A stretch of DNA of 64,000 nt from Acidicapsa ligni (GCF_025685655.1 NZ_JAGSYG010000003.1:744001-808000); one strand, 5' to 3'. Numbered from the stretch's first letter, positions 26,547-57,975 are shown. Notes: generated from the sequence alone by a model not told the origin. A program made the numbers and translations.

Positions 26547-27848
26547 GTGCACACCGTTTCTGAAGAACGCCTCATCCGCCCCGCCAAAAATATTTACGGC
26601 AGTCTTCGCCTTCCTGGCGATAAATCTATCAGTCACCGCTACGGCATGCTGGGCTCTTTTGCCGAGGGCACTTCGCGCTTCTCCAACTTTTCCACAGGAG
26701 CTGACTGCGCATCCACCCTCGCCTGCATGGAAGCCCTGGGAGCCAAGGTCACTCGCACCGAAGACGGTATAGTGGAAGTCACCGGCGTCGGCGGCGTTGT
26801 GAAGCAACCTGCCGGACCGCTCGATTGCGGCAACTCAGGTTCGACCATGCGTATGATTTCCGGATTGCTGGCCGCGCAGCAGGGCGAGTTCACGCTTATC
26901 GGCGACGATTCCCTTTCCCGGCGACCGATGGAGCGCATCCGCAAGCCCTTGGAGAAGATGGGCGCACGGCTCACGCTTACGGAAGGCCATGCCCCAATCC
27001 ATATTCTTGGCGGCCCGCTCCAGGCGATCGATTTCACCACGCCAGTGCCGAGCGCACAGGTGAAAACCTGCGTCCTGCTCGCCGGGCTGCAAACACCCGG
27101 TACAACAACCATTCGCGAGGATATCCGCACCCGCGACCATAGCGAACTGGCCCTGCGAGCCTTTGGAGCCAACGTTCATCGCACCTCCAACTCCGTCTCG
27201 ATCACCGGACCGCAGACGCTCTCCGCGATTGAAGCAACCGTTCCCGGAGATATCTCCTCAGCGGCATTCTTTCTTTGCGCGGCTGCACTTTTTCCCGGCT
27301 CTCAACTGTTGCTCGACTCACTCGGCCTCAATCCAACGCGCGCCACTCTGCTGGATGTACTGACCTCTCTCGGGCTTCAGATCAGCGTACTCAATCTTGA
27401 AGACAAGCATTCGGAGTTGATTGGCACTGTGCAGGTCACTTCTCCTGCCGAAGGATTGGGCAGCACCTCGATATCCGGCTCGCTCGCGGCACAGCTCATC
27501 GACGAGCTTCCCGTGCTGGCGGCCATCGCTCCGTATACAAGCGGCGGCATCCGCATTCGCGATGCACAGGAGCTGCGCGTCAAGGAGTCCGATCGCATCG
27601 CGCTGGTCGTTCAGAACCTGAAGGCAATGGGCGCTGAAGTCATCGAGTACGAGGACGGCATGGATGTACCCGGCGGACAGAAGCTGCATGGAGCGACGAT
27701 TGAGTCCGGCGGCGACCACCGCATTGCGATGGCCTTCAGCGTAGCCGCACTGCGCGCCGAGGGAGACACACTCATTCGCGGTTCGGAATCGGCGGCGATC
27801 AGCTTCCCTGAGTTCTTTGATCTGCTCGACTTCGTTGCAGAACGGTAG
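26547..27848 (+). CDS. aroA: 3-Phosphoshikimate 1-carboxyvinyltransferase (EPSP synthase)
   Basis: 433 residues from a GTG (26547) with AGGAG-like TTCGGAGT ahead. All family blocks are present: 'LRLPGDKSISHRYGMLGSFAEG' (shikimate/PEP site), 'DCGNSGSTMRMISGLLAAQQGEFTLIGDDSLSRRPMERI' and 'RIRDAQELRVKESDRIALVVQNLKAMGAEV'. It condenses shikimate 3-phosphate and PEP in chorismate synthesis. It has Gly in the LPGDKS and NSGST loops as in ordinary enzymes; I cannot assign glyphosate class from this alone. It ends at a strong bidirectional terminator. Confidence 0.96.
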   Translation: MHTVSEERLIRPAKNIYGSLRLPGDKSISHRYGMLGSFAEGTSRFSNFSTGADCASTLACMEALGAKVTRTEDGIVEVTGVGGVVKQPAGPLDCGNSGSTMRMISGLLAAQQGEFTLIGDDSLSRRPMERIRKPLEKMGARLTLTEGHAPIHILGGPLQAIDFTTPVPSAQVKTCVLLAGLQTPGTTTIREDIRTRDHSELALRAFGANVHRTSNSVSITGPQTLSAIEATVPGDISSAAFFLCAAALFPGSQLLLDSLGLNPTRATLLDVLTSLGLQISVLNLEDKHSELIGTVQVTSPAEGLGSTSISGSLAAQLIDELPVLAAIAPYTSGGIRIRDAQELRVKESDRIALVVQNLKAMGAEVIEYEDGMDVPGGQKLHGATIESGGDHRIAMAFSVAALRAEGDTLIRGSESAAISFPEFFDLLDFVAER

Positions 27849-27872
27849 AATTTTGCCGCGTTAAAAACTGAA

Positions 27873-27915
27873 ATCAAAAAGCCCGATGCTCCAATGGAGG
27901 ATCGGGCTTTTTGAT
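27873..27915. terminator. Bidirectional intrinsic terminator
   Basis: ATCAAAAAGCCCGAT (27873-27887) pairs with ATCGGGCTTTTTGAT (27901-27915), and CTCC-AAT-GGAG extends the stem inside the loop. A-run and T-run flank it, and it sits between the convergent aroA and TolC-family genes. Confidence 0.92.
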
Positions 27916-27927
27916 TCTGTAGCGAGG

Positions 27928-30120
27928 CTATTTCTGAGGCGGCGGAGTCTGCTGCATCGTCGGCCCCTTGGGGATTTCCTGTTGCTGCTGTTGCTGCTGA
28001 TTCGCATCCGGAACCGTAGGCTCCTTGCTCTGCTTCGCTGGCTCAAGTCCCGGAATGAGCGGAACTTCTTTCACGACGCCCGTCGCCGCATCTTCAAGGC
28101 TGATGCCATAGTGTTGCAGCGTGGTGGCAAGCAATTGATAGAGGCTGGCGCGATCCTTCGCGTAAGCTGCCTTGGCTGCGATCAGGCTATTCTCGGCCGT
28201 CGCCACATTGCGTGACTGCTGCAACACCAGCGCGGTTGTGGAAGCGCCAAGATGCAGCTTCTTCTGCTCAGCGTCGAGACTCTGCGCATTGAACTTCTGT
28301 GAGGCCTCGGCGGCGAGAACTGCGGCACGATCGTTCGTCAGCGCGAACTGCTGGTTGACCACCTGCATCTTGATCTCGGTATAGAGCTGCTCAAGCCGCA
28401 ACTGCGCCTGGCGATATTCAATCAACGAACGAGCCCGATCTGCCTGTGCCGTCCTGTTGCGCAGCGGGATATTCACGTTGAAGCCAGCACCTTTGTCCGG
28501 AGCCGAGCTATTGAACAGGTTCTGAAATACCGAACTGTAGTTGACGGTCGGAAAGGATCCCGGGACGTACGGCTTGCCCGTGTTGAAGTCCAATGCATCG
28601 GGACTCTGAGCGCCACCGAGCGCACTCGCTCCGTAGAACGCAAAACCATCCAGCACTGGCAGCAACCCGTTCTTCGCGCCGCGCAGTGTGATCTCATCTT
28701 TCTTGATGGAGAGCACGGCCTGCTCAAGTTCCGGTCGTTGTTTGAAAGCAATCTGCGCTAACTCATCCGCAGTTTGTTTCTCTTCCGGCAACTCTTCGAG
28801 GCTCACGCGATCCGTTGGGATAATCGGAGCAGCAAGCAACGCCTGGTCATTGAGATTACGCGCAATCGCCTGCTTGATGATTAATTGTTGATAGTTGAGA
28901 TTGCTCTGTGAACTGATCAACGCCTGCTTGTCTGCCGCCACTGAAGAATCCGCAGTCACGACATCCAGCGGAGCCATGGTGCCGATTTCCAACTGCCTGC
29001 GATCGTCATCCGCAACCTTGGTGCTCTGCTCAAGCGCATGCTCTTTCGCCTGCAAATCCTCATAGGAACTTACGAGCGCCCAGTAGATGTTTTCTACCTG
29101 GTTGACGGTGTAGAGAATCTGCTGGCGGAAGGCCGAATCCGTAATGCGGCGATCGTAAATCGCCTCTTGAATGAAGCGCTTGTTGACCCAGATACCGCCG
29201 CCCTGCAATAAATGCTGCGTCAACAGAGCCTTGAAGCTCGATGTAAGATCCGGGCTGTAGTTGGCAAATGGATTGTTCGTAGTAATGCGGCTGTTGTTAA
29301 AACCGACCTGGAGTTGCGTACCAGTCACAAATCCCTGGTTGTATACGAAGTTGTATTGATCGGTATTCGTTGTAAGAGCCGCCAGACCACCGGAAAACAA
29401 TGTGTTGGACTGCGGCGCCGAGGCACGCTCTAACTGGACGGTGCCAGTCACGTAGGGATCGAGATTTTCCGGAAGAGGCCCAGCACCGTCGGTTGAAACC
29501 ACAAGGCCGGAACTACCAGTAGCCGCACCTGCCGAGGTGCCGCCAGGACCGCCGCCAACCGTTAACGTCTGCGAACTGCCACCCAGTGTGTTGGACACGA
29601 TACCCGAATTGACGCCACGCAGGCTCGATCCGGATTTGGCACGCAACAGGTCTGTATCTGCAATGTCCAGGTTGTAGCGCGCAATTGCCAGATCGTAGTT
29701 GTTCTCAAGTGCCAGCGTAATGGCGTCGCTCAGGCTCAGGTAGATCTTGCCGTTCTTCACCAGATCGGTCAGACGAACGGAGTTCATGAAGCTGGCTGCC
29801 GGCACCTTCGTCGACTCAAAAATCCTCAGCGGGTTGGGATAAATCCCATGCGCCTTGCCGAAGTCTTTTTCGGTGTCGCGTAAAAACAGCGGCTCAGTAG
29901 GCGTAGGCGCTGGCTCGGATGGCAGCTCGTTCAGCACCTTGTTCCCAGCCTGAGGTGCAGTCTGCTGGGCAAATAGCTGTGGCGGCATCGCGGTTGTTAA
30001 TCCCAGCAAAACCACCGCAGCAACACGCAGGCGGCCTGAGCTGTTGCCATGCTTACGAACGCGGTCATGGATCTCGTCGCTTTTCACTACTTCTGTGACA
30101 CGATTCCCGTACAAATGCAT
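27928..30120 (-). CDS. TolC-family outer-membrane channel protein
   Basis: 730 residues, long for the family (about 450-500). A signal peptide ends near 51 (RVAAVVLLGLTTAMPPQLFAQQ). Two TolC/OEP repeats are seen: 'YLSLSDAITLALENNYDLAIARYNLDIADTDLLRAKSG' and 'DELAQIAFKQRPELEQAVLSIKKDEITLRGAKNGLLPVLDGFAFYGAS', with long coiled-coil helices between. The extra length comes from a Gly/Ser/Thr-rich insertion at about 165-220 (GGGPGGTSAGAATGSSG) and a Gln/Pro-rich tail. These proteins are trimeric exit ducts for efflux pumps or type I secretion. No pump is adjacent. It converges with aroA. Confidence 0.9.
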   Translation of the reverse strand: MHLYGNRVTEVVKSDEIHDRVRKHGNSSGRLRVAAVVLLGLTTAMPPQLFAQQTAPQAGNKVLNELPSEPAPTPTEPLFLRDTEKDFGKAHGIYPNPLRIFESTKVPAASFMNSVRLTDLVKNGKIYLSLSDAITLALENNYDLAIARYNLDIADTDLLRAKSGSSLRGVNSGIVSNTLGGSSQTLTVGGGPGGTSAGAATGSSGLVVSTDGAGPLPENLDPYVTGTVQLERASAPQSNTLFSGGLAALTTNTDQYNFVYNQGFVTGTQLQVGFNNSRITTNNPFANYSPDLTSSFKALLTQHLLQGGGIWVNKRFIQEAIYDRRITDSAFRQQILYTVNQVENIYWALVSSYEDLQAKEHALEQSTKVADDDRRQLEIGTMAPLDVVTADSSVAADKQALISSQSNLNYQQLIIKQAIARNLNDQALLAAPIIPTDRVSLEELPEEKQTADELAQIAFKQRPELEQAVLSIKKDEITLRGAKNGLLPVLDGFAFYGASALGGAQSPDALDFNTGKPYVPGSFPTVNYSSVFQNLFNSSAPDKGAGFNVNIPLRNRTAQADRARSLIEYRQAQLRLEQLYTEIKMQVVNQQFALTNDRAAVLAAEASQKFNAQSLDAEQKKLHLGASTTALVLQQSRNVATAENSLIAAKAAYAKDRASLYQLLATTLQHYGISLEDAATGVVKEVPLIPGLEPAKQSKEPTVPDANQQQQQQQEIPKGPTMQQTPPPQK

Positions 30121-30447
30121 GAATCCTCTCCACTCATCCTTGAGGCATGTGGGTTACCACTCAATCAAGACGCTATTACGCTCTTGCCTACTCATTCTCT
30201 CCGCCAAGATTCAGCCCGCGGTGAAGAAGCATCGGTTGGCCTGCTTTTGGTACGGAAGGGAATACGTCAATTGTATTGAATTCGTTCCCACGCTCATCAG
30301 CCGCCTGTTGGTCCCTGCGTTACACGTACCCATACGGTAACCCAATGCAGACTACGGCTCCCCCGGCACCCCTGAGTATATCCCGGCGCAGAAGCCTTCC
30401 AGACAACTCCACAGCTTGAAACTTCAGCCAGTTCAATAAGCTATGCT
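30121..30447. other. Intergenic region between divergent tolC-like and truA genes
   Basis: 327 bases holding both upstream regions. I see no gene, no tRNA and no clear DnaA box (TTATCCACA). The segment is only moderately AT-rich near 30240-30300. It sits inside the interval where the + strand skew turns from C-rich to G-rich, so it is a natural place to look for an origin, but no motif proves one. Confidence 0.4.
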
Positions 30448-31251
30448 GTGGCAGCGATGCAGAACTGGAAGTTCACCCTTACATATGACGGCACGGCCTA
30501 CCACGGCTGGCAAGTGCAGCCTGGCATCGAAACGATCCAGGGAGAGCTGCAGAGCGCTCTGCGGCGGGTGCTGGGGGCTGCATCGGGCGAAATGCCGCTG
30601 CCTCAAGGCTCTGGACGAACAGACGCCGGGGTTCACGCTCTGGGGCAGGTAGCCAGCGTTATGCTGGAGGCGCCAATCCCCGCGGAAAATCTCCAGCGTG
30701 CGCTCAACCGGACGCTGCCGCCTGCGATACGCATCCTCCGCGCCGAGCCGGTTCCACAGGACTTTCACGCGCGCCACTCCGCTATCGGAAAGACCTACGA
30801 GTACCGCATCTTTCGCGGGAGTTTGTGTTCGCCGTTTCTCGCTCGATACGTTCACCTGTGCGTCTGGAATCTGGATCTGGCGATTTTGCAACAAGCCGCG
30901 CAACAGGTAATTGGAGAACACGACTTCACCAGCCTCGCCGCTTCTGATCCCGATATGAGTAGCCGTGCTGAAGAAGATGAGGCTGCCGCCGACTCGAACG
31001 TGCGGGCTATCTTTTCCTCAGAATGGCGCGAAGAACCAGGCGACCTGCTTATCTATCATGTCCGAGGTAACGGATTCCTTCACCATATGGTGCGGAACCT
31101 GGTGGGGACGATGCTGGAGATTGCTCGGGGGCACTTCCCTGCGGATGCTATGCCGAAGATTCTCGCCGCCCAGACACGCTCCGCTGCCGGACCGACTGCG
31201 CCGGCGCGTGGGCTCTTCCTGCATTCTGTGGAATATCCACCGGGAGCTTAA
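30448..31251 (+). CDS. truA: tRNA pseudouridine(38-40) synthase TruA
   Basis: 267 residues from GTG 30448; ATG 30457 (MQNWKFTLTYDGTAYHGW) is an equally plausible start. The catalytic Asp lies in 'GSGRTDAGVHALGQVAS' (about 55), 'FHARHSAIGKTYEYRIF' is the second conserved block and 'FLHHMVRNLVGTMLEIARG' the third. It modifies U38-U40 of tRNA anticodon stem-loops. A short acidic insertion (SSRAEEDEAAADSN, about 170-184) is not usual. M20 peptidase follows by 26 bases. Confidence 0.95.
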   Translation: MAAMQNWKFTLTYDGTAYHGWQVQPGIETIQGELQSALRRVLGAASGEMPLPQGSGRTDAGVHALGQVASVMLEAPIPAENLQRALNRTLPPAIRILRAEPVPQDFHARHSAIGKTYEYRIFRGSLCSPFLARYVHLCVWNLDLAILQQAAQQVIGEHDFTSLAASDPDMSSRAEEDEAAADSNVRAIFSSEWREEPGDLLIYHVRGNGFLHHMVRNLVGTMLEIARGHFPADAMPKILAAQTRSAAGPTAPARGLFLHSVEYPPGA

Positions 31252-31277
31252 GCGCCTTCCTGCTAACCTGAAACACT

Positions 31278-32558
31278 ATGGTTTTGCTTAGCCGCAGTTC
31301 GGCTTTCTCCCGCGTAACGGCACTTGCTGAGCAAAGGCCTTTGCATGAGGCTTTTCGCTGGCTGCACTTGCATGGGCAGCAAATGCTGCATTGGCAGGCT
31401 GAGCTGGTCACCATTCCAGCACCGCCGTTTGGCGAAGAGATGCGCTCTCTCTGGATGGCGGAGCAGTTTCGATTGGCCGGACTCGGTTCGGTTGATATCG
31501 ATGGACTGGGCAATGTTTTTGGCGAACTGGCTGGGGCTGATTCGGACGAAACCGAGGCTGGGCCAGTGGTCCTGCTGTCCGCTCATCTGGATACCGTTTT
31601 TCCCGCCGACACTCCGCTTAAACCATTGATAAACGGAGATTTGCTTGAGGCCCCAGGAGCCTGTGACAACGCCGCCGGAGTAATCGGAATGCTCGGGATT
31701 GCGCACGCCCTGGTGAAGGCGCAGATGCCATTGGGCGCGATGCTGGTTTTTGTCGGAAATGTGGGCGAAGAAGGCGAAGGCGACCTGCGTGGTGTGCGGG
31801 AGATTTATCAGCATTCGCGATATGCAGGGCGCATTGCAGCGCATGTCGTTTTGGATGGTGCCGGCGCTGAAACTGCCGTTACGCAGGCCTTGGGGAGCAA
31901 GCGCTTTCAGGTAACAATTACTGGGCCGGGCGGGCATAGTTTTACCGATTCAGGAACAGTTAACCCTATACCTACATTGGGCTTAGCACTTGCCAACCTG
32001 GCACAGACCACGGTACCCGATGAGCCTCGAACCACGCTGAATGTGGGCACAATTCAAGGTGGAACAAGCGTGAATACTATTCCCGAAATGGCTACTGCGG
32101 CGGTTGATTTCCGATCCACCGATATGCGGGAACTGGTGCGGCTCGAAGTAGCTTTGCATCGCGCCGTGGAGGATTCAGTTGATCTCGCGAATGGCCGTGC
32201 TGCTGCGCGAGAACTGAAGCGCGAAGGCGGTCGAGGGCGCAATCAACTTAGCTTTGCCATTGAAACAATTGGCGATAGACCCGCTGCGAACCTCCCACCG
32301 GATTCTCCGATATTGGAAGCGTTGCGGGCTGTGGATCGGCATCTTGGGCTGCGTACGGATCTGCGGCTTGGTTCCACAGATGCCAATATTCCATTGGCGC
32401 TGGGGATTCCGGCAGTTTCGCTCGGAGCTGGCGGCGACGGTGGCGGAGCGCATACGCGGGGAGAATGGTATTCGGCTGTGAACCGGGAATTAGGGTTGCG
32501 GCGGATACTTTTGCTGACGCTGGCAATGCTCGAATGGACCGGACAGTCAATCGGCTAA
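31278..32558 (+). CDS. M20-family metallopeptidase
   Basis: 426 residues. Metal ligands: His103 and catalytic Asp105 in SAHLDTVFP, bridging Asp130 in GACDNAAG, general base Glu164 and Glu165 in VGEEGEGDL, and a C-terminal His (GGDGGGAHTRGEW). The lid/dimerisation domain is 'GGHSFTDSGTVNPIPTLGLALANLAQT'. The family cleaves dipeptides, N-acyl amino acids or tripeptides. It could supply an N-succinyl-amino-acid hydrolase for the GNAT/MenC-family pair at 3.8-5.8 kb, but it is 26 kb away, so this is only a possibility. Close to truA and likely co-transcribed. Confidence 0.9.
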   Translation: MVLLSRSSAFSRVTALAEQRPLHEAFRWLHLHGQQMLHWQAELVTIPAPPFGEEMRSLWMAEQFRLAGLGSVDIDGLGNVFGELAGADSDETEAGPVVLLSAHLDTVFPADTPLKPLINGDLLEAPGACDNAAGVIGMLGIAHALVKAQMPLGAMLVFVGNVGEEGEGDLRGVREIYQHSRYAGRIAAHVVLDGAGAETAVTQALGSKRFQVTITGPGGHSFTDSGTVNPIPTLGLALANLAQTTVPDEPRTTLNVGTIQGGTSVNTIPEMATAAVDFRSTDMRELVRLEVALHRAVEDSVDLANGRAAARELKREGGRGRNQLSFAIETIGDRPAANLPPDSPILEALRAVDRHLGLRTDLRLGSTDANIPLALGIPAVSLGAGGDGGGAHTRGEWYSAVNRELGLRRILLLTLAMLEWTGQSIG

Positions 32559-32612
32559 TCATTCCCTGCCGGATTATTTACATTTACAACGCCTAAGACC
32601 GCCAAACATTCG

Positions 32613-33551
32613 CTAACTTCTCATGCGCGGGTTGACCCACCGATACGTAATGTCAGTTAGCAGGTTAACGAGAACGTAGGTCAGTCCAATCGCGAGCAGG
32701 CTTCCCTGCACCAGCGCGTAATCGCGGCCGGAGATGGCAGCGATTACCAGGCGTCCCAGGCCAGGCCAACTGAAGATGGTTTCGGTGACGATTGCTCCGG
32801 CGAGTAGAGCGCCGAATTGCAGGCCGACCACGGTCACGATTGGAACCAGTGCATTGGGCAGGGCATGGCGGTAAACTACCGCGGTTTCGGTCAGGCCTTT
32901 GGCGCGAGCGGTGCGGATGTAGTCCTGGTTGAGTTCTTCAAGCATGGCAGTGCGGACCATGCGGGTAAGGATGGCGGCAAGCGACACTCCCATCGCTATA
33001 GATGGCAGGACCAGATACGGCCAGCCATCGAAGCTCCATAGTGGCCCGGAGCCCGACCCTGAAACCGGCAGCCAGCCAAGTTTGATAGAAAACGTAAGAA
33101 TCAGAATCGGCCCGAGCGCGAAGGCCGGAACAGACAGACCGAAGAGGCTGACGAGGCCTATGCCCTGATCCTGCCAGCGGCTACGGTAGACAGCAGCCAT
33201 AACTCCCGCGGGGATGGCCAGCAGCAGCCCGAGAATCAGGGCGCTTATGGTCAGTTCAATGGTGTAGGGATAGCGGGTGGATATTAGGTGGACCACCGTG
33301 TCGTTGAGGCGGATAGAGCGACCCAGGTCTCCGTGGAGAACGTCGCGCCAGTAATGGATATATTGCGTGCTGAGCGGAAGATCCAGTCCGTATTGATGGC
33401 GCAGGGCTGAAAGATCAGACGCGGTTGCTCCCTCGCCGAGCATTTGCTGGACAGGATCGCCAGGGACCAAATGGATCAACAAAAAGACAAGCGAGACCAC
33501 CAGCCATACGACTGGGAGGGTTAACAGGACGCGGATGAGAATAGACTTCAT
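32613..33551 (-). CDS. Oligopeptide/dipeptide-type ABC permease (DppB/OppB-like), orphan
   Basis: 312 residues with six predicted helices. 'VSLVFLLIHLVPGDPVQQMLG' at the N-terminus and 'HYWRDVLHGDLGRSIRLNDTVVHLISTRYPYTIELT' are hallmark OppB sequences; the EAA loop is 'TARAKGLTETAVVYRHALPNALVP'. Normally such a gene heads dppB-C-D-F with a binding protein. Here the downstream neighbour is the convergent M20 gene and upstream is the CNNM-like gene, so the partners must be elsewhere or lost. Confidence 0.92.
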   Translation of the reverse strand: MKSILIRVLLTLPVVWLVVSLVFLLIHLVPGDPVQQMLGEGATASDLSALRHQYGLDLPLSTQYIHYWRDVLHGDLGRSIRLNDTVVHLISTRYPYTIELTISALILGLLLAIPAGVMAAVYRSRWQDQGIGLVSLFGLSVPAFALGPILILTFSIKLGWLPVSGSGSGPLWSFDGWPYLVLPSIAMGVSLAAILTRMVRTAMLEELNQDYIRTARAKGLTETAVVYRHALPNALVPIVTVVGLQFGALLAGAIVTETIFSWPGLGRLVIAAISGRDYALVQGSLLAIGLTYVLVNLLTDITYRWVNPRMRS

Positions 33552-33575
33552 TGGTTAGCTTTTACGATAACGGTT

Positions 33576-34931
33576 TCAACCCTGGAGATCTTCTTCGACT
33601 GGTTCTACTCGGACTTGCTGGATGCGGCGGCCGTCCATCTCAGTCACTGTCATTTTTCGGCCTTCGAACATAATGCTTTCGCCGCCTCTTGGTATTTTTC
33701 CCAATCGCATCAGTAAGAAGCCGGCTAATGTTTCGACGCCGCCTTCGCGAGGCAGGTGCCATTGCATCTGGGTCTCCAAGTCGCGAAGGTTAACGCTGCC
33801 CTCCAGCAGTAAGGCACCTGACGCTGTCGTCAGGACGGGGCGAGCTGGGTCGTCGAATTCGTCATCGAGTTCGCCGGTTAGTTGTTCTATGGCGTCTTCT
33901 ACTGTGACTAACCCCACGGTCGAGCCGTACTCGTCTACTACGATGGCCATCTGGCGGCGGCGTTGCTGGAAGTCCTGAATCAGGTCCAGAACTGTTTTGG
34001 TTTCAGGGACCATGAGGACGTCGCGCATCAACTGGCTGAGTCGCAGCTCTACAAAAGGAGCGGCGGCGGAGCGAGTGCCTGCGGTACGGCGAAAATGCAT
34101 GAGTCGCGCCAGATCTTTGGCGTAGATGACGCCGATGATGTGTTCGGGGCCGCGGGTTTCGTCGTAGACGGGCACGCGAGAGTGTTGGTGATCGATCACA
34201 GCGGCGCTGGCTGCTTCGATGAGGGTATCCCCCGGCAGGGAGATGATCTTCTGGCGCGGGGTCATGATCTCGCGAATAGGCGTTTCGTCCAGTTCCAGAG
34301 CGCGATGGATGAGCCGCTCTTGAAACGCGGGAAGGACACCCATGCGACGTGCCGCAGTCGCGATGAGTTTGAGTTCTTCTGGAGAGTGGACCGCCGCCTC
34401 ATGCGACATGGGCACCTGGAAGAGGTACAGCACAATGCGTGCGGAGCCTTGCAGGAGGCGTACAGCCGGGCGGGTGAGCGCCATGAAAAGCAGCATGGGC
34501 GCAGCTATGGCGATAGCCAGGTTTTCTGCGCGACGCAGGGCCAGAGATTTGGGAACGAGTTCGCCAAGCAGGACATGAAGGTACGTGATGAGGGCGAAGC
34601 CGATTACGACAGCCGTAACGTGTGCGAAGAGGACGGCATGCGGCAATCCCTGCATTAACGGATAGAGAATTTCCTCAGCTACGGGTTCGCCTATCCAACC
34701 GAGGGCCAGGCTGCAAAGCGTTACGCCGAGCTGACCTGCGGGGAGAAATCCGTCAAGATCCTGCTGAAGGCGGCGGACAGCGTTAGCTCCCGGTACGCGT
34801 GCGGCGATAAGCTGCTCAACACGGGTGTCGCGCATGGAGACAAGTGCAAACTCTGCGGCGACGAAGAAGCCATTGGCCAGGATGAGGATGGCGACGGCGA
34901 CGATTTGGAGCAGCGGGAGACCGTGCATCAC
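33576..34931 (-). CDS. CNNM/CorC-family (hemolysin-like) transporter with CBS domains
   Basis: 451 residues. The DUF21 membrane domain (about 5-185, 'ILANGFFVAAEFALVSMRDTRVEQL') is followed by a tandem CBS pair ('REIMTPRQKIISLPGDTLIEAASAAVIDHQHSRVPVYDE' and 'MRDVLMVPETKTVLDLIQDFQQRRRQMAIVVDEYGSTVGLVTVEDAIEQLTGEL') and a C-terminal CorC_HlyC domain ('LEGSVNLRDLETQMQWHLP'). The family is linked to Mg2+/Co2+ efflux and tolerance rather than haemolysis. The second codon is also ATG. It is followed 24 bases later by the orphan permease on the same strand. Confidence 0.93.
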   Translation of the reverse strand: MMHGLPLLQIVAVAILILANGFFVAAEFALVSMRDTRVEQLIAARVPGANAVRRLQQDLDGFLPAGQLGVTLCSLALGWIGEPVAEEILYPLMQGLPHAVLFAHVTAVVIGFALITYLHVLLGELVPKSLALRRAENLAIAIAAPMLLFMALTRPAVRLLQGSARIVLYLFQVPMSHEAAVHSPEELKLIATAARRMGVLPAFQERLIHRALELDETPIREIMTPRQKIISLPGDTLIEAASAAVIDHQHSRVPVYDETRGPEHIIGVIYAKDLARLMHFRRTAGTRSAAAPFVELRLSQLMRDVLMVPETKTVLDLIQDFQQRRRQMAIVVDEYGSTVGLVTVEDAIEQLTGELDDEFDDPARPVLTTASGALLLEGSVNLRDLETQMQWHLPREGGVETLAGFLLMRLGKIPRGGESIMFEGRKMTVTEMDGRRIQQVRVEPVEEDLQG

Positions 34932-35156
34932 TCTCTCTTTCTGGCTGAGTTTAACAGTTGGTGTTGTTTTGAGAACAGATGCAGCGGCTTAACACCCCTT
35001 GGCGGCATAGCTGATTGGCGAGTCAGCTCGATTTGCGGCCCTAGGAATAAGCGCGGTGGAACCAAAAGCAGGGGGGCAACGTATCGTTGGTTTACAACGC
35101 TTATTGGAAATCAGTTGCGTTTGTAATTTTCCAGAGAAGCACTATCGGAGGCAGTT

Positions 35157-36359
35157 GTGGCTGCAGCGCGTAAGAAAGGCCGATTCTGGCTGTGGACTGG
35201 TTTGGTTGTTGTAATTGTGTTGGCTTTGGGTGGAGCGGCGATTGCCCACCTTGCTTCTGGTTCGGCGATTGACCCAAACAAGCTCGGCAAAGTGGTACGT
35301 GGCGATGTGGCGCGCTCGGTCGTGGCAACGGGTAAGATTACTCCGATCACGCAGGTTGAGGTGAAGTCAAAGGCTTCGGGCATTGTGGAGAAGCTGTATG
35401 TGGACATCAACAATGTCGTCCACAAGGGACAGTCGCTGGCACAGCTCGATCAGCAGGAGATTGCAGCTCAGGTAGCGGCGCAGAGAGCGCAGTTGCAGGC
35501 GGCGGAAGCGAATGTCTCAAACTTTGACGCGGCACTGGAACAGGACAGGGTTACCGCCGCTGCTCCAGACCTGCCTATGTACAAAGTCACTCTGGATCGC
35601 AATATAGAGATGGTGAAGCAGGGATTGGTTCCGCAGCAGTCTCTGGATAATGCCAACCGCGACTACCTGGCAGCGTTGAACAAGCGTGATTCGGCCAAGG
35701 CGCAGATTGGTGTGGATGGCGCGAAGTTGAAGCAGGCAAAGGCACAGGTAGCCCAGAACCAGGCAACTCTGAATCAGTTGGATGAGCAGTTGAGCTACAC
35801 CACGATTGTTGCTCCGATGGATGGAGTGGTGCTTTCGCGGGATGTTGAGATCGGCGATGCGGTAAGTTCGATCCTCGTGCTGGGTTCGACGGCAACACTC
35901 GTAATGACGCTCGGCGATACGACCGAGGTCTATGTGAAGGGCAAGGTGGATGAAGCGGACATTGCGCACGTCTATATGGGGCAGCCCGCGCGGATCAAGG
36001 TGGAGAGCTTCCGGGACCGGTATTTTCAGGGCAAGGTGACAAAAATTTCTCCGATGGGCGTGGAGAAGGATAACGTCACAACCTTTGAAGTGCGGGTGTC
36101 GATCAACAATCCTGGTGGAGAGTTGAAAGCGCAGATGACAGCGAATGCAGAGATTCTGCTGGATGAGCACAAGGGCGTGTTGACGATTCCGGAGAATGCA
36201 GTGATCTATGACAGTTCGAAGAATGCTTTTGTGGAGATTCCCGACAAGCAGCAAAAGGAAGGCAAGCGAAAGATTCCTGTAAAGGTTGGACTGTCGAATG
36301 GTTCGTTGACTGAAGTGATCAGCGGAATCAAAGAGGGCGACACCGTCGTATTGCAGTAG
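35157..36359 (+). CDS. Membrane-fusion protein (HlyD/MacA-like periplasmic adaptor)
   Basis: 400 residues from a GTG with GGAGG 7 bases upstream. One N-terminal anchor (about 11-32, WLWTGLVVVIVLALGGAAIAHL) is followed by a biotinyl-lipoyl half 'VEVKSKASGIVEKLYVDINNVVHKGQSLAQLD', an alpha-hairpin of two long coiled helices (about 105-205) and the second lipoyl half 'TTIVAPMDGVVLSRDVEIGDAV'. A beta-barrel and membrane-proximal domain complete it ('VTKISPMGVEKDNVTTFEVRVSI', then 'LTIPENAVI'). This matches MacA-type adaptors, which pair with an ABC efflux permease and TolC. No macB-like gene follows, so it is an orphan. Confidence 0.9.
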   Translation: MAAARKKGRFWLWTGLVVVIVLALGGAAIAHLASGSAIDPNKLGKVVRGDVARSVVATGKITPITQVEVKSKASGIVEKLYVDINNVVHKGQSLAQLDQQEIAAQVAAQRAQLQAAEANVSNFDAALEQDRVTAAAPDLPMYKVTLDRNIEMVKQGLVPQQSLDNANRDYLAALNKRDSAKAQIGVDGAKLKQAKAQVAQNQATLNQLDEQLSYTTIVAPMDGVVLSRDVEIGDAVSSILVLGSTATLVMTLGDTTEVYVKGKVDEADIAHVYMGQPARIKVESFRDRYFQGKVTKISPMGVEKDNVTTFEVRVSINNPGGELKAQMTANAEILLDEHKGVLTIPENAVIYDSSKNAFVEIPDKQQKEGKRKIPVKVGLSNGSLTEVISGIKEGDTVVLQ

Positions 36360-36603
36360 CGTGTGTTGCAGTAGCATGAATTTCGCCTCCGATTGCTGTT
36401 CGTAAACGGACACGAAAGTTACAAATCTGGACAAGTGGACAAAAAGCGCATTTTTCCTGCAGACATAACCCGTTTAGGATGAGATTCCTACGAATTCGCC
36501 GATTTGGCCACTTGGATGCAATACATTGTGCAACTAGGGGTGACTGGATTTATAGTCAGTCGCAGATTTGATGTTCAACCGTTATCGATTTGTGAGGAAC
36601 GAT

Positions 36604-37446
36604 ATGAAGCATTGGATTCCGGCAACAGCAGTTCTCCTGGCACTGGTACCTGGAGTGCTTTCACGGTCTGCGCAGGCTTCGGAGGCGACGTTTGAGCGGA
36701 CGTTGACGGTGAACGGGCATGTGATTCTGCATGTTTCCACGGGCTCGGGAAACATCCACCTGACGACTTCTTCAGGCAACCAGGTGCATGTTGTTGGGCA
36801 CATCCATTCGCATGGCGACCAGGAAGACCGTGTGCGGCAGATTGCAGCCAATCCGCCGATTGAGCAGACCGGGGACATTTTGCGCGTAGGCGCGCATCTC
36901 GACAACCTGCACAATATCTCGATCGACTATGAGATTACGGCTCCCGCAAATGCATTGCTCGAAGCCTCTTCAGGATCGGGCGATGTGGTCGATGCCGGCG
37001 TCGGGGTAGACGCCAAGCTGAATACAGGCTCGGGCAACATTCATGCGACCGGGCTGCAACAGAGCATTTCGGTGGAAACAGGTTCAGGAGATATTTACGC
37101 GGAGCAGACCGGATCTGGCGACGTGAAGGCCAACACCGGCTCGGGAAATATCGAACTGAGAAATGTTTCCGGCGGTCTGCGGGCGCAGACGGGATCAGGC
37201 GATATCAAGCTGGGTGGGCAGCCTAAAGCTGGATGGCATGTGACGACCGGCTCGGGCAGCGTAGAGCTTTGGGCTTCCAACGCCCCAATGAATCTGGAGG
37301 CATCGACAGGCTCCGGAGACATTCACACAGATGGCGTTACGATGGATGCAGTGATGACGAATCATCACAATCTCACCGCAAAGCTGCATGGTGGCGGACC
37401 AGCGGTCCGTATCGAGACAGGGTCAGGCGATATTCGTATTCATTGA
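36604..37446 (+). CDS. Exported DUF4097-like beta-solenoid protein with TGSG repeats
   Basis: 280 residues from the ATG at 36604, chosen because GAGGAA lies 6-9 bases upstream; two upstream in-frame starts have no such site. A signal peptide (1-24, ...LALVPGVLSRSAQA) precedes a repetitive region with at least nine 'TGSG(N/D)I' turns: STGSGNIHL, SSGSGDVV, NTGSGNIHA, ETGSGDIYA, QTGSGDVKA, NTGSGNIEL, QTGSGDIKL, TTGSGSVEL, STGSGDIHT, ETGSGDIRI. Spacing is 10-25 residues. This is the DUF4097/DUF2807 parallel beta-helix pattern, a likely periplasmic or surface protein. Function unknown. Confidence 0.88.
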   Translation: MKHWIPATAVLLALVPGVLSRSAQASEATFERTLTVNGHVILHVSTGSGNIHLTTSSGNQVHVVGHIHSHGDQEDRVRQIAANPPIEQTGDILRVGAHLDNLHNISIDYEITAPANALLEASSGSGDVVDAGVGVDAKLNTGSGNIHATGLQQSISVETGSGDIYAEQTGSGDVKANTGSGNIELRNVSGGLRAQTGSGDIKLGGQPKAGWHVTTGSGSVELWASNAPMNLEASTGSGDIHTDGVTMDAVMTNHHNLTAKLHGGGPAVRIETGSGDIRIH

Positions 37447-37774
37447 AATCGGGGTTGCTGCCGATACTGACAGCTTAACCCCCGATTGTTCCATCATGAG
37501 TTCAACAACAAGGGTGTTCCTCGGCGGGATTCGAAAGTGCTCCACGGGACGGATCTCGCCTTTTTTTGAATCTATAACATTTTGAAACAAAATTGAAACA
37601 TAAATTAGCTTACTTAGTAACTTTTCTTTAGTTTCGGGACAACTACCGGTTCTACTTCCAATTTGCGTAAGTTTTGGCCCCAGGTTTATCGCCAACCCGC
37701 AAGGGAGGCAGCCACTATCCTCGACTGAACAAGGGATTTTGTAACAGTCTCGTGATTTCTCATACACTGAAAGC
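37447..37774. other. AT-rich intergenic region with hairpin
   Basis: 328 bases. At its start AATCGGGGTT (37447-37456) pairs with AACCCCCGATT (37477-37487), with one bulged C, and may terminate the solenoid gene. The middle (about 37565-37640) is markedly richer in A and T than the rest of the window, a candidate promoter region for the HAD gene. I recognise no riboswitch or RNA gene. Confidence 0.4.
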
Positions 37775-38521
37775 ATGGTGCATACTTCCCGCGCTCTTCC
37801 ATTGGAATCGCTGCAGCTATTGGTCTTCGATCTGGATGGAACGCTGATTGATTCGCGGCGAGACCTCTGCGACTCCGTAAATGCTACGCTCGAAAACTTC
37901 GGCATGAAGACGCTGGAGGACTCAGTGATCGGCGGATACATTGGCGATGGAGCGGCAACTCTGATCCGACGAGCGTTGTCTGTTCCAGGCGAACTGCTAC
38001 CGGGGATGAAGCCTGACGATGAGGAGTTTTTTCAGAAAGCGTTTGCGTTTTTTCTCAGCTACTATCGCATTCACAAACTGGACTATACCTACGTCTACCC
38101 CGGTGTCTTCGAATCGCTGGAGGCTCTGAAGTTTTTGCCGGATGGCAGGCAGCGGGCGATGGCCTGCCTGACAAACAAACCTGTGGGCCCTGCACAGGCC
38201 ATCTGCGATGCACTAGGACTATCGCCTTACTTCTTCAGCGTATACGGGGGCGATACTTTTGCTACCAAGAAGCCGGATGCGCAGGGCTTGCGGACACTGA
38301 TGGCCGAGGCAGGCGTCGGTCCGGAAGAAACGCTGATGGTAGGCGACTCTGATGTAGATGTAAAAACAGCGCGCAATGCGGGGGCATGGGCATTGGGATG
38401 CAGTTTTGGGCTTTCGCCCGTCACACTGGCAGCAGCGATGCCCGATGTGGTGGTGGATCATGCTTCAGAATGGGCTGAGGCACTGCAGGGTGCGCGTTTT
38501 GCACCGCAGAACCAGGGATAA
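37775..38521 (+). CDS. gph: HAD-superfamily phosphatase (phosphoglycolate phosphatase-like)
   Basis: 248 residues. Motif I VFDLDGTLIDSRRDL has the nucleophile Asp19 and acid/base Asp21. The cap region is alpha-helical (AATLIRRALSVPGELLPG to FAFFLSYYRIHKLDYTYVYPGVFESLEAL), motif II is 'AMACLTNKP', motif III Lys is in 'GGDTFATKKPDAQGL', and motif IV is 'TLMVGDSDVDVKTARNAGAW'. This arrangement is that of Gph/PhnX-like HAD enzymes, which remove phosphate from phosphoglycolate or related compounds. The exact substrate is unverified. Confidence 0.88.
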   Translation: MVHTSRALPLESLQLLVFDLDGTLIDSRRDLCDSVNATLENFGMKTLEDSVIGGYIGDGAATLIRRALSVPGELLPGMKPDDEEFFQKAFAFFLSYYRIHKLDYTYVYPGVFESLEALKFLPDGRQRAMACLTNKPVGPAQAICDALGLSPYFFSVYGGDTFATKKPDAQGLRTLMAEAGVGPEETLMVGDSDVDVKTARNAGAWALGCSFGLSPVTLAAAMPDVVVDHASEWAEALQGARFAPQNQG

Positions 38522-38651
38522 GCAGGGAAATCTGCCGCAGCTAGAACCGGCAAAAACGAAACTTGCGTGGGCGATTGTTCGTCTAAGTTACATACCAGTT
38601 CGACATCCGGTGATTCAGACTGATCTAATCATTATTAGAAGGAGTCTTTTT

Positions 38652-41414
38652 TTGAATCGATTTATTGTACTTCTTGCTCTCCCTGTTGCCATACTCTCTA
38701 TCCATATTCTCCCTGAAACAGTTGCCTTGGCAGCTGCAAGTCCTGCGGGAACGCGGACCGTCAGTGGAAATTTTACAAGCAGTAATTCTGTGGACAATCC
38801 AGAATCGACTCCGGGATCGACCCCCTCAAACGTCGTGCGAGGCGTGGTGGCAGATCCCAGTGGCGCAATTGTGCCGAATGCCCAGATTGACTTGGTCAAT
38901 GCTGCCGGCGCCGTAACGGCGACCCTGCACTCGGATGGGACAGGAAATTTTCAGATCACCACACCTGCGGTCGGGGATTTTACGCTGGTGGTCTCTGAAG
39001 CAGGATTCGACACGGTGCGAACGCCCGTGAAACTGGCCAAGCCAATCGCCCCCGCGCTGGCCGGACCGATGCTGCACATTGTATTGCCGATCTCCACGAT
39101 GGCGACTACCGTCAACGTGAATGCCGGAAACAGCGTGGACCTGACGGCCTCGGAGTCCAATGCGGACACTTCGGTGATGAGCGCAAACGATCTAAAAGCT
39201 TTGCCCATCTTTGACAACGATTACAGCACCGCGATGAGCGCTTTTATGGATTCGAGCGCCGAGGGCACAGGCGGCGCCGGGCTGCTGGTCGATGGAGTGG
39301 AAGCGAATCGGGCAACTGTATCCGCAAGCGCGGTGCAGGAAGTTCGCATCAACCAGGATCCCTATTCGGCGCAGTATTACTGGCCGGGGCGCGGGCAAAT
39401 GGAGATCATTACGCGTTCCGCGGCAGATCACTACCACGGCCAGTTCAACTTCACCTTTCGCGACTCAGCTTTAAATGCTCAGAATGCATTGGCCGCAACC
39501 AAGCCATATGAGCAGCGACGCGTTTATGAGGGATATACGACGGGGCCGATTCCTCACGCGAAGAACAGCAGCTTCCTGGTTTCGTTTAACCGGGCAGAAG
39601 AAGATCAGGACGCGGTAGTCCTGGCGACGACTGAGGCTCCGACTTCGACAAATCCCACGGGCCAGTTCCAGGCGAATGTATCGGCGCCGACTCGGGATAC
39701 GGAGTTCAGCACCCGAGCGGCTCATCAGTTTGGCGACCGAGTCTCAGCTTATGCGCAGTATGCGTATCAGGACTCAACCTCGCAGAATGAAGGCGTAGGC
39801 GGACAGACGCTGGCGGCGGGCGGATACAACAATCACTATCACGAAGATGATGTGATTTTTCACGCAGACACGACGCTCTCGGCGACCATGCTGAACCAAT
39901 CCTCGATCGTGTTCGAACATGATCGCAACGAGACTCAGAATGCGATTGAGGCTCCCCAGGTAAATGTGTCGGGAGACTTTGTGGGCGGCTCAGCGCAGAA
40001 CGACTCAACCTCAACGGAATACAACCTGCGGTTGAGCGATACGGTAAGTTGGACGCGTGGTAAGCACTCGGTAAAAGTAGGCGCGAACGTGCCCCATCTG
40101 GATCGCCGCGTGTATGACGACAACACCAACGGCCTGGGCACATATACGTTCGCTCCAACCCTGGATGCGAATGGGGATGTGGTGACATCGGCATTGCAGA
40201 ACTACGCAACGAATCATCCTTCGGGATTTACGCAAAATACGGGCGACGTACGGTTTGTGTATCACCAGCAGGAAATGGGCGTATTTGCCCAGGACCAGTA
40301 CAAAATGACGGACCGGTTCTCAATCACGCCCGGAATTCGCTATGACTGGCAGAACTTTCTGGCGACGGACCGACTGACGTTTTCTCCGCGCGTGTCGTTT
40401 GCGTGGGTGCTTGATCCGGCTTCAAAGACCGTGCTTCGCGGTGGTGGTGGTTTGTATTACGACCGCTTCGGCGGAGGGCCGCTGCTGGACCTGGTGCGAT
40501 ATGAGAATGCGCGGCGTCGTTCGCTGACGCTGTCGCTCAATCCGGCAACCCAACCAGCGGATGGATGCGTGCCGGTGACCAATTGCGTGACACTGGGCGA
40601 TCAACCGGCCAACCTGGCGCAGTTGCAGCCGAACGCGAAGGTTCCCTACCAGATTCAATATGGACTCTCCGTGGAACGCGGTTTTGGCAAGAGCGCTGTA
40701 GCAGTAATCAGCGCCTATTCGGTACGCGGTGTGGATCGCTTCCGCTCGGTAGATATCAATGCTCCGACACCTCAATCGAATTACACAGAACGGCCGAATC
40801 CTGAGTTCGCGCGTATTCGAGAGATGCAGCCGGAGGGGACGTTCATTGGAAATGGAATGGATATCTCGTTCCATGGCGAGTTGAACAAATACTTCACTGG
40901 CTTTGGGCGTTATACCTGGTCGCATTTTGAGTCCAACCAGGAAGGTATTTCGTGGTTCCCGCAGAACCAGCAGGATCCAAACGACGAGTGGGCGAACTCA
41001 AGCTGGGATCGTCGGAATCGGCTGGGGATGTATGCCATCTTCAACCACCAGAGCGTAGCCAATCTTGCATTGGGAATCTTTGCCAATTCCGGTTCGCCGT
41101 GGACAGTGCAGACTGGAGCCGATCTGCCGTATAACGACCTCTTGTTCAACGCGCGACCGGATGGTGTGGCGCGCAATACGGAGACTCTGCCGTCGTATGT
41201 CGATCTCGATGTGCGCTGGGGCCATGATTTCCATCTGACACAGAGCAAAGAAGACGAATCGCCGAAGCTTGGTTTTTCGGCGGGCGCCTTCAATGTTCTG
41301 AACCATGAGAATGGCTCGGCAGTGGACCAGGTCGAGAGTTCGACCTCGTTTGGGCAGGTCACGTCGGTAGCTCCGGCGCGGCGTATTCAGCTGGCGATGC
41401 GGTTTGAGTTCTAA
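38652..41414 (+). CDS. TonB-dependent receptor-like outer-membrane protein with carboxypeptidase-regulatory domain
   Basis: 920 residues from a TTG at 38652, selected because AGAAGGAG ends 8 bases upstream and a signal peptide follows at once (FIVLLALPVAILSIHILPETVALA); the frame is open further upstream through the HAD gene. Residues about 60-140 form a carboxypeptidase-regulatory-like (Ig-fold) domain (VRGVVADPSGAIVPNAQIDLVN, SDGTGNFQITTPAVGDFTLVVSEAGF). A plug domain follows (about 180-260, 'GGAGLLVDGVEANRATVSASAVQEVRINQDPYSAQYYWPGRGQMEIITRS') and then a long beta-barrel ending in RIQLAMRFEF with terminal Phe. This is the Oar-like expansion typical of Acidobacteriota, presumably for large nutrients. 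Confidence 0.92.
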   Translation: MNRFIVLLALPVAILSIHILPETVALAAASPAGTRTVSGNFTSSNSVDNPESTPGSTPSNVVRGVVADPSGAIVPNAQIDLVNAAGAVTATLHSDGTGNFQITTPAVGDFTLVVSEAGFDTVRTPVKLAKPIAPALAGPMLHIVLPISTMATTVNVNAGNSVDLTASESNADTSVMSANDLKALPIFDNDYSTAMSAFMDSSAEGTGGAGLLVDGVEANRATVSASAVQEVRINQDPYSAQYYWPGRGQMEIITRSAADHYHGQFNFTFRDSALNAQNALAATKPYEQRRVYEGYTTGPIPHAKNSSFLVSFNRAEEDQDAVVLATTEAPTSTNPTGQFQANVSAPTRDTEFSTRAAHQFGDRVSAYAQYAYQDSTSQNEGVGGQTLAAGGYNNHYHEDDVIFHADTTLSATMLNQSSIVFEHDRNETQNAIEAPQVNVSGDFVGGSAQNDSTSTEYNLRLSDTVSWTRGKHSVKVGANVPHLDRRVYDDNTNGLGTYTFAPTLDANGDVVTSALQNYATNHPSGFTQNTGDVRFVYHQQEMGVFAQDQYKMTDRFSITPGIRYDWQNFLATDRLTFSPRVSFAWVLDPASKTVLRGGGGLYYDRFGGGPLLDLVRYENARRRSLTLSLNPATQPADGCVPVTNCVTLGDQPANLAQLQPNAKVPYQIQYGLSVERGFGKSAVAVISAYSVRGVDRFRSVDINAPTPQSNYTERPNPEFARIREMQPEGTFIGNGMDISFHGELNKYFTGFGRYTWSHFESNQEGISWFPQNQQDPNDEWANSSWDRRNRLGMYAIFNHQSVANLALGIFANSGSPWTVQTGADLPYNDLLFNARPDGVARNTETLPSYVDLDVRWGHDFHLTQSKEDESPKLGFSAGAFNVLNHENGSAVDQVESSTSFGQVTSVAPARRIQLAMRFEF

Positions 41415-41457
41415 GAGCCGAATATTAGACCGATATTAGAGCCAGCAATTTAGGCTA

Positions 41458-41489
41458 AACGACGTGACGACCCCGGTCGTCACGTCGTT
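41458..41489. terminator. Strong intrinsic-type hairpin
   Basis: AACGACGTGACGACC (41458-41472) pairs perfectly over 15 bp with 41475-41489, leaving two bases between the arms and so a tight C/G turn, and is followed by CGATTTTC. It lies between the convergent receptor gene and the small minus-strand gene and can serve both. Confidence 0.85.
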
Positions 41490-41495
41490 CGATTT

Positions 41496-41798
41496 TCAGG
41501 CCCAGAATGAGAGTGGACCTGAAACTGGAGCTGCCGATGAGGTGCGCTGTGTCTCGGTAGCCTGATCCTGGTCGCCGGATTCATTGGATCCGTAGTAGCC
41601 TTGATTTGCAGATGAGTCTTTTCCAGCCCAGGCAGTAACCATCCAACTAGTCTCAGTGCTGGCGGTGGCGTCGAGTTCTGAGGCCGAGGCAAAGAGCTTT
41701 TTGCGGGTGGCTTCGGACTGACGCGCGGCGGTAGCGGCTGTTGAGGCGTGCGCCGAATTCGTTTGACTGGGACTTATTTGTCCTGAATGGATATGCAT
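41496..41798 (-). CDS. Small Ser/Ala/Thr-rich protein, unknown
   Basis: 100 residues. A good Shine-Dalgarno (AGAAGGGA, 5 bases before the ATG) and placement beside a terminator support it as real. The composition is Ser/Ala/Thr/Gln-rich without hydrophobic segments (MHIHSGQISPSQTNSAHAST, then RQSEATRKKLFASASELDATAS). No domain is recognised. It diverges from the frameshifted gene at 42033. Confidence 0.55.
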   Translation of the reverse strand: MHIHSGQISPSQTNSAHASTAATAARQSEATRKKLFASASELDATASTETSWMVTAWAGKDSSANQGYYGSNESGDQDQATETQRTSSAAPVSGPLSFWA

Positions 41799-42032
41799 GT
41801 GCTTCCCTTCTCTACGTTTCTGCGTTCTCTCTTTGGCTTCTTTTTCGGTTTCTCTGTTCTCGCTGTCCGACCGGTTTCACTGCCCCGCTTCCAAGCAAGC
41901 CGAATGCCTTTCTCGGTAGGGTTTCTTGGAACTTTCCAATATGCTGCCTCGATCTATGCTGGCTTGATCGCGAATCGATTTCGTGGAACTTCTCGCTGGC
42001 AGAGTTCGTATTCGCAGACTGGGGTGAAGTGT

Positions 42033-42562
42033 ATGAGCCGTACGCGCGTTGTGGGGATCGTGCTTCTTCTGCTGATGGCTGGAATGCTGGTTAAGCCAGC
42101 GCGAGCCGCGGGGATGTGGTGCAGTTTGGTGACACCATCCAGGTAAACAAGGATGCCTCCATCCGTGATGCTGTTTGCTTTTTCTGCGGCGTAAATGTGC
42201 AGGGGACGATCAACGGCGACACGGTTGTATTTTTTGGCAGCGCACGTATTGATGGGCAGGCAAACCACGATGTCGTGGTGTTCTTTGGCAATGTAGTCGC
42301 AGCCGATAATACATCGATTGGACACAACCTGGTGAACTTTTTCGGTAGCGTGCGGCTGGGTGAAAATGTGACCGTTGGGCAGGACACGGTGGTGATGTTC
42401 GGCAGCCTGCATGCTCCGCAATCAGTGAGCTACGGCGGCGACCGCGTAGTGCAGCCTGGATTTATCTTCTGGGTGCCGTTTCTGCTGATTGTTTTTGGAT
42501 TTAGTTTTGTCGTACGCGAGCTTCGCGGCCAACGGCGCAGGCGAATGCTGCGAGGTTATTGA
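42033..42562 (+). pseudogene. Bactofilin-like membrane protein split by a 1-base frameshift
   Basis: An ATG at 42033 (GGGTGAAG upstream) encodes a clear signal peptide, MSRTRVVGIVLLLLMAGMLV to KPARAAG, but that frame stops at 42146. The mature part continues in the frame that is open to 42562: GDVVQFGDTIQVNKDASIRD, then repeated 'GTINGDTVVFFGSARIDGQANHDVVVFFGNV', a bactofilin-like beta-helix, and a C-terminal membrane helix (FIFWVPFLLIVFGFSFVV) with basic tail. One extra G in the G-run at 42110-42113 would join them as ..ARAAG-DVVQFG... It is either a true pseudogene, a phase-variable G-tract or an assembly error. The downstream part might also start alone at GTG 42116, but would then lack the signal. 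Confidence 0.75.
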
Positions 42563-42577
42563 GTTATCTTTTACTGA

Positions 42578-43357
42578 CTAGATCCAGCCACCGTCGATGA
42601 TATGGCTTTGTCCGGTGATGGCGCTGCTGTCTTCTGAGGCGAGAAAGAGCGCGAGGCGAGCCACTTCGTCCGGAACAAGATGCCGTTTGATGGCTTGGCT
42701 GGCGAGGATTTCAGCACTGTACTCGGCTGTGAGGACCAGCTTGCGTTGCTTGTCGGTGACGATAGCGCCGGGCAGGATGGCGTTCACGCGAATGTTGTCT
42801 TTGCCCAGCTCGTGAGCAAGCGTGTGGGTCATGCCGACGATAGCTGCTTTAGCTGTGACGTAGACAGGCAGGCCGACCGACGGAATCAGCCATGCGATCG
42901 AACTCATATTAAGAATGGATGCGTTGCCGGATTGCTTCAATGCAGGTATCGCTGCCTGCGTTATGAAGAACTGATGGCGCAGGTTGACGGCCATGAGCTG
43001 ATCCCACAACTCGGGGGTAACTTCTTCAATCGCGTGACGCCGGTCATTGCCCGCATTGTTGATAAGCACGTCGAGGCCGTTGAGAGATTCAATGGCCTGA
43101 GCAGTGGCTGCGCGAACGGCTTTAATGTCTGTCATGTCACAGCGGAGATAGATAGGTACAGGATGCCCTGCGGCAGCGATGCGAGCTACGAGTTCTGCGG
43201 CCAACTGATCCTGAATATCGAGGAATGCAACTGCTGCTCCCTGCGCAGCAAAGGCTGCTACGAACGCTTCGCCGATGCCGCTGGCTCCGCCGGAGATAAG
43301 TACGCGACAGCCCTTGAGACTGGGGTAAGTGGCGTATTGTGCCTGAGATTCGGTCAT
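42578..43357 (-). CDS. Short-chain dehydrogenase/reductase (SDR)
   Basis: 259 residues from the ATG at 43357 (MTESQAQYATYPSLKGCRVLISGG); the longer frame adds 80 low-likelihood residues overlapping the DUF2752 gene on the same strand. Nucleotide motif SGGASGIG (TGxxxGIG type), NNAG motif (LDVLINNAGNDRRH), and catalytic Ser (MSSIAW) with Y-x3-K (PVYVTAKAAI). 'LPGAIVTDKQRKL' and the C-terminal 'DDSSAITGQSHIIDGGW' type end are standard. It is close to sugar/polyol dehydrogenases of the classical SDR group. Substrate unknown. Confidence 0.92.
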   Translation of the reverse strand: MTESQAQYATYPSLKGCRVLISGGASGIGEAFVAAFAAQGAAVAFLDIQDQLAAELVARIAAAGHPVPIYLRCDMTDIKAVRAATAQAIESLNGLDVLINNAGNDRRHAIEEVTPELWDQLMAVNLRHQFFITQAAIPALKQSGNASILNMSSIAWLIPSVGLPVYVTAKAAIVGMTHTLAHELGKDNIRVNAILPGAIVTDKQRKLVLTAEYSAEILASQAIKRHLVPDEVARLALFLASEDSSAITGQSHIIDGGWI

Positions 43358-57973: not shown

Positions 57974-57975
57974 AT

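Follow-up and report, generated by a model that had tools for sequence, protein, structure and literature searches.

A secondary C-to-G skew turn in Acidicapsa ligni and the possibility of several replication initiation sites on one bacterial chromosome

The prevailing view is that a bacterial chromosome replicates from one origin. What, then, is to be made of a 64,000-nucleotide stretch of the Acidicapsa ligni genome (positions 744001-808000 of contig C3, hereafter the window) in which an excess of C over G on the strand read turns into an excess of G over C, as would be expected at an origin, and of other such C-to-G turns elsewhere in the same genome, whose relatives are Acidobacteriaceae? 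The turn in the window is not the principal chromosomal origin; it is a secondary C-to-G turn without parS or DnaA boxes, and about twelve C-to-G turns are present in the approximately half of the genome that was read. Judging from sequence patterns, the turns are perhaps best explained by several fork-initiation sites per chromosome, a tentative reading to which we give somewhat less than an even chance. The genome (5.68 Mb in 17 contigs, 99% complete) was read over 2.72 Mb, about 48% of its length, including nearly the whole of the 961-kb contig C3; some stretches of contigs C1, C4 and C7 were picked because sparse sampling hinted at a C-to-G turn, which introduces a selection bias. Genes were called with a simple caller of open reading frames (ORFs) based on codon usage, and skew was computed per gene at fourfold-degenerate third positions. 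The remaining genome was mapped only by two polarity proxies, G/T-only runs of 16 nucleotides and a polar repeat, whose orientation matches the sign of the skew in 99.5% and 98.8% of strong-domain cases, respectively.

Starting at position 1, the window's cumulative GC skew drops until 31311, its only minimum, and climbs from there to the end; cumulative keto skew has its minimum at 27409. A two-segment likelihood fit of fourfold skew between 14 and 49 kb places the change point in the 327-base spacer at 30121-30447 (2dlnL = 215). The turn zone therefore covers approximately 30.1-31.3 kb, with C exceeding G leftward and G exceeding C rightward for genes on both strands, and the window is composed of the following parts.

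1-30120, no strand assigned: weak C-rich domain in which genes of either strand have fourfold skews mostly between -0.1 and -0.4
30121-30447, no strand assigned: spacer of the divergent pair formed by a TolC-like gene and truA, the best-fitting change point of fourfold skew
30448-49199, no strand assigned: moderately G-rich flank in which fourfold skews lie between about +0.1 and +0.44 for genes of either strand
49200-64000, no strand assigned: strongly G-rich domain that extends to about C3:880 kb, with fourfold skews between +0.57 and +0.88 except in one gene (53494-54921)

Left of the turn, fourfold skew is mostly negative on either strand (aroA, plus, -0.33; the TolC-like gene, minus, -0.14), and right of it, positive on either strand (truA, plus, +0.18; CNNM, minus, +0.40; further on, UvrB, plus, +0.72, and the gene at 49200-49673, minus, +0.64). 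The left-hand domain is weak, at about -0.2, and values of +0.7 on the right are reached only past 49 kb. Both the fourfold skew and the single GC minimum uphold the original prediction that C exceeds G on the left and G exceeds C on the right irrespective of gene strand. Among 1502 genes of this genome, position accounts for 77% of the variance of fourfold skew, as against 3.5% for coding strand by itself, and neighbouring genes on opposite strands are correlated in skew with r = 0.80; because such neighbours agree and position so far outweighs strand, the strand asymmetry seen in the window depends on position and not on coding. Since an excess of T over A accompanies that of G over C (r = 0.45), the asymmetry is one of G plus T and has the usual leading-strand sign. 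A transcriptional or coding-strand cause is ruled out by the small share of variance due to strand, and the small strand term is, in addition, of a sign that would not let divergent genes produce a C-to-G turn. An ORF of 475 amino acids at 53494-54921, which has no Pfam match, shows a fourfold skew of -0.18 versus +0.6 to +0.7 for its neighbours and is possibly a recent arrival.

The sign of the turn is thus that of an origin, and to this extent the original prediction of a possible replication origin stands; the identification with the origin of the chromosome does not. The cumulative skew of contig C3 has its minimum at 534.6 kb; the window's turn (774 kb) forms another minimum, almost as deep. 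The strongest of all turns read is not on this contig but at C1:457 kb. The properties that define oriC (the global cumulative minimum, DnaA boxes with an AT-rich element, and dnaA, dnaN or parABS nearby) are not found at the window's turn: a search allowing up to one mismatch found no DnaA box less than 2 kb away, in agreement with the original prediction, which had noted the lack of clear DnaA boxes there; no AT-rich stretch occurs at the turn, where the lowest GC content of any 100 bases is 0.43; and the window contains no parS site at up to three mismatches. Scans for promoters and terminators between 29900 and 31400 gave chance-level results only, the same interval holds no notable repeat, and the window has no tRNA genes or Rfam elements. 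The dnaA gene itself is located at C1:88 kb, where the skew changes modestly from G to C. A dnaX-ybaB-recR cluster, identified by Pfam, occupies positions 10140-13409, 17 kb to the left of the turn; dnaX is found near the origin in some bacteria, and the cluster was not taken as evidence.

Contigs C1, C3 and C4 each have several turns, with divergent turns of polarity separated by zones of convergence, and C3 and C1 are mosaics of strong domains (skew of 0.5 to 0.8, of either sign, over 50-200 kb) and near-zero stretches. The steepest turn read, at C1:457 kb, goes from -0.7 to +0.7 and crosses zero within 4 kb; other narrow C-to-G turns are those at C7:254 (6 kb) and C4:442 (7 kb), and at C1:970 and C4:170 the sign changes within a few genes. 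Wider C-to-G turns, of 25-41 kb, are those at C3:255, C3:515, C3:775 and C1:149-180, the last with its gap occupied by a zero-skew insert. The G-to-C turns are broad. Those on C3 extend over 65 and 67 kb, and one on C1 over about 110 kb, between +0.40 (210 kb) and -0.25 (320 kb); genes inside them have intermediate skew, passing smoothly through zero with no mixture of signs. Jumps greater than 0.6 are upward at 61 positions and downward at one, the upward count being inflated by the choice of stretches. Two long stretches, C1 1.12-1.56 Mb (sampled) and C3 1-120 kb, have practically no asymmetry, some of this DNA being of lower GC content than the strong domains; such stretches may consist of DNA that is young or accessory, or forks may have no preferred direction there.

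This inequality of the two kinds of turn bears on the main alternative, that a single origin in the rsmG-parA-parB region serves a scrambled chromosome, in which inversions and insertions have broken a strongly skewed ancestral chromosome into blocks whose edges, relaxing to their new polarity, appear as C-to-G turns. We give this account a somewhat smaller chance than several initiation sites. The zero-skew stretches do look like young insertions, and the only large downward jump (-0.73, at C3:443 kb) borders a zero-skew block. Inversions, however, predict C-to-G and G-to-C edges of equal sharpness, whereas those observed are unequal, and the smooth unimodal gradients, like the parS sites at the turns, are not explained by them. 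In contrast, sharp divergent turns at fixed sites combined with smooth convergent zones are the trace that several initiation sites would be expected to produce.

The parS consensus is present at 17 places in the genome at up to one mismatch, while the reversed control gave none. Seven sites are clustered within 1.6 kb at C1:456956-458527 (L156), in the arrangement rsmG, four parS, parA, three parS, parB, with dnaA 370 kb away. The other loci, in kb, are C1:149, C1:970, C2:370, C2:635, C3:255, C3:400, C4:169 (two sites) and C7:254 (two sites); given the main cluster of seven and the pairs elsewhere, eight sites (one of them a one-mismatch copy) are not independent. For seven parS loci both flanks were read; the upward skew jump is among the top 0-4.3% at six of them, the main cluster and five loci of single or paired sites, and not at the seventh, C3:400 (Fisher's combined p of 4e-8, or 4e-6 excluding the main cluster, values that serve as guides since positions are autocorrelated). 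When the parS loci are pooled, the 5 kb on their left have a skew of -0.49 and the 5 kb on their right one of +0.29, the skew fading by about 150 kb, and at C2:635 kb a rise is also suggested by the polarity proxies and sampled skew. parS is found at most turns and not at all of them: those at C4:442, at C3:515 and in the window have none, so that a turn can exist without parS. The isolated sites, among them C1:149357, C1:969960, C3:254990, C3:400220 and C4:169462, tend to fall between convergent genes (4 of 6 in the main gene list, 5 of 6 counting a small gene at C1:970066); convergent spacers make up 19% of the intergenic length.

A second polar marker, the 19-mer CATTCCCGNAGGGAATCTG, occurs in 179 dispersed intergenic copies, mostly in strong domains, and is often flanked by GTTGCNGTTG-type runs. 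Its orientation agrees with the sign of the skew in 81 of 82 strong-domain copies. On C1, all 25 copies between 344 and 456.7 kb are forward and all 37 between 459.5 and 608 kb are backward, so that orientation switches at the parS cluster at C1:457, and it does so again at parS C1:970 kb. The repeat is possibly a polar element like KOPS (FtsK-orienting polar sequences) or a repeat of the REP (repetitive extragenic palindromic) type.

The association with parS has another possible explanation: ParB-loaded SMC would move outward from parS, and strand-dependent mutation or selection (for instance on polar repeats or translocation cues) would follow the direction of SMC and not that of the fork. 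That the turns match parS more precisely than they match dnaA or DnaA boxes, and that the polar repeats switch at parS, would agree with such a process, but strong turns without parS (C4:442 kb and C3:515 kb), the parS-free turn of the window and a parS site without a turn (C3:400 kb) are at odds with it. We know of no route from SMC translocation to strand-biased mutation, which further counts against this explanation, and we consider it improbable.

The genes around the window's turn allow the history of the locus itself to be traced. The change point lies inside a block of five genes.

26547-27848, plus strand: aroA (EPSP synthase; Pfam EPSP_synthase and synteny), fourfold skew -0.33, first gene of the block
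27928-30120, minus strand: TolC-like outer membrane efflux protein (Pfam OEP and synteny), fourfold skew -0.14
30448-31251, plus strand: truA (tRNA pseudouridine synthase; Pfam PseudoU_synth_1 and synteny), fourfold skew +0.18
31278-32558, plus strand: M20-type peptidase (Pfam Peptidase_M20 and synteny), fourfold skew +0.10, containing the GC minimum at 31311
32613-33551, minus strand: ABC transporter permease (Pfam BPD_transp_1 and synteny), fourfold skew +0.21, last gene of the block

The order and strands of these genes are identical in six relatives (L129, L133, L135, L137, L138 and L143), and the gene order spanning the turn is ancestral. A rearrangement edge at the turn, which the original prediction had offered as the alternative in the form of a terminal inversion, is ruled out by the position of the change point within this intact block. 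The polarity of the block varies among relatives: it is negative throughout in L129 and L133 (-0.45 to -0.74) and positive throughout in L141 and L146 (+0.23 to +0.57), whose version of the block comprises the first four genes. Polarity is therefore a property of the chromosomal place, rewritten once the block moves. In L139, from the same genus, a turn is found near the same genes (truA -0.15, M20 peptidase +0.17, permease +0.47, CNNM +0.62), with different neighbours on the left, and L135 and L138 have weaker turns near the block. A gene-specific skew offset of aroA and the TolC-like gene may make the turn look more sharply placed at 30.1 kb; because it is present in some relatives (L137, L143) and absent in others (L129, L141, L146), it is ruled out as the source of the domain change.

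These comparisons cut both ways for the scrambled chromosome with a single origin. The opposite polarities of one syntenic block indicate that it has often been moved or re-read, as frequent rearrangement would have it, but the ancestral gene order across the window's turn does not fit a block edge at that place. The same ancestral order also speaks against the turns being the origins of separate ancestral replicons that have fused, or chimeric joins in the assembly. Such an artefact or fusion might be suspected from the 17 contigs and from a genome of 5.68 Mb versus 3.3-4.6 Mb in relatives of the same genus; on the other hand, several turns fall within single contigs of 0.66-1.56 Mb, many of them with parS, and no plasmid replication gene lies beside the parS turns examined. 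We judge fusion or misassembly to be quite unlikely.

Among closed genomes of the family, G032, G047, G095, G117, G119 and G128 have one parS locus each, about 15-85 kb from dnaA. G017 (closed, 3.7 Mb), unlike the other closed family genomes searched, has a seven-site parS cluster and eight dispersed parS sites, at positions that include 126, 962, 1397, 1553, 1689, 2095 and 2439 kb. The same-genus genome G044 has one parS, located between negative runs and the first positive runs, and further sign blocks without parS, a combination that favours scrambling. From the single-parS genomes of the family, G017 and the sign blocks of G044, it follows that the multi-turn pattern extends beyond the genome of the window and that, within the genus and as far as tested, parS dispersal is special to it. 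Closed ZG23-2 (CP085323.1, G117 above) was set aside as a skew comparator and its values were not used, its skew being too weak.

If several initiation sites are indeed the explanation, the window would hold a secondary point of fork divergence, averaged over evolution. The dominant point would be the rsmG-parA-parB region at C1:457 kb with its seven parS, accompanied by about a dozen weaker points, spaced roughly 200-500 kb from one another and many at isolated parS sites. Leading/lagging mutational asymmetry would write an excess of G and T outward from each initiation site, and forks from adjacent points would meet at variable places, leaving smooth G-to-C gradients and zero-skew stretches between them. 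parS might mark an origin active now or in the past, or ParB/SMC loading might favour initiation. The more specific version of this proposal, a single chromosome with several discrete, heritable origins, mostly marked by parS, whose segregation and initiation sites multiplied together and of which the window would be a parS-free member, appears rather unlikely, though its chance is far from negligible.

Several observations weigh against multiple initiation sites. For the majority of bacteria, the existence of multiple origins in nature has not gained acceptance. No DnaA-box clusters were found at the other turns, near dnaA or anywhere in the sequence read, the parS site at C3:400 kb has no turn, and the window's own turn is moderate in strength and lacks both parS and DnaA boxes. 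The contrast in width is modest on C3 alone (25-41 kb for C-to-G versus 65-67 kb for G-to-C), if in the same direction, and the sample comprises 48% of the genome, with some stretches chosen for suspected turns. Finally, the polarity proxy in G017 would fit just one turn, located at the parS cluster 0.41 Mb from dnaA.

Precedents for the proposed arrangement are partial. In cyanobacteria (Synechocystis 6803, Nostoc 7120 and others), replication from multiple origins, independent of DnaA, has been measured and is accompanied by irregular skew (PMC7198777). As in A. ligni, there is no single clean V in the skew, initiation occurs at more than one place (measured there, inferred here) and dnaA may be present; unlike in A. 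ligni, where turns are strong and discrete and several coincide exactly with parS, the irregular skew comes without discrete marked sites. Multiple origins have been proposed from skew for Wigglesworthia, Wolbachia, Mycoplasma pulmonis and Synechocystis (Xia 2012, PMC3269012), likewise by reading several polarity changes per bacterial chromosome as possible origins and with the same cautions; those proposals relied on skew alone in mostly small, AT-rich genomes, whereas here parS, polar repeats, the contrast of narrow and broad turns, and synteny are added. Archaeal chromosomes such as those of Sulfolobus and Haloferax have several origins (PMC3269012, PMC4595724) and resemble the present case in their multiple skew valleys with convergence zones between, with the difference that the host here is a bacterium with dnaA. 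As for the canonical oriC-proximal region with rsmG-parA-parB and parS, C1:457 kb has both the arrangement and the strongest turn, while the parS cluster is 370 kb from dnaA and the window's turn has none of the genes or sites of that region.

The reported exceptions to the single bacterial origin, in some cyanobacteria, lack discrete marked sites, whereas A. ligni offers about a dozen precise candidate sites with steep polarity, several of them exactly on parS. Should the improbable SMC explanation nevertheless be true, skew minima in bacteria could mark parS instead of oriC.

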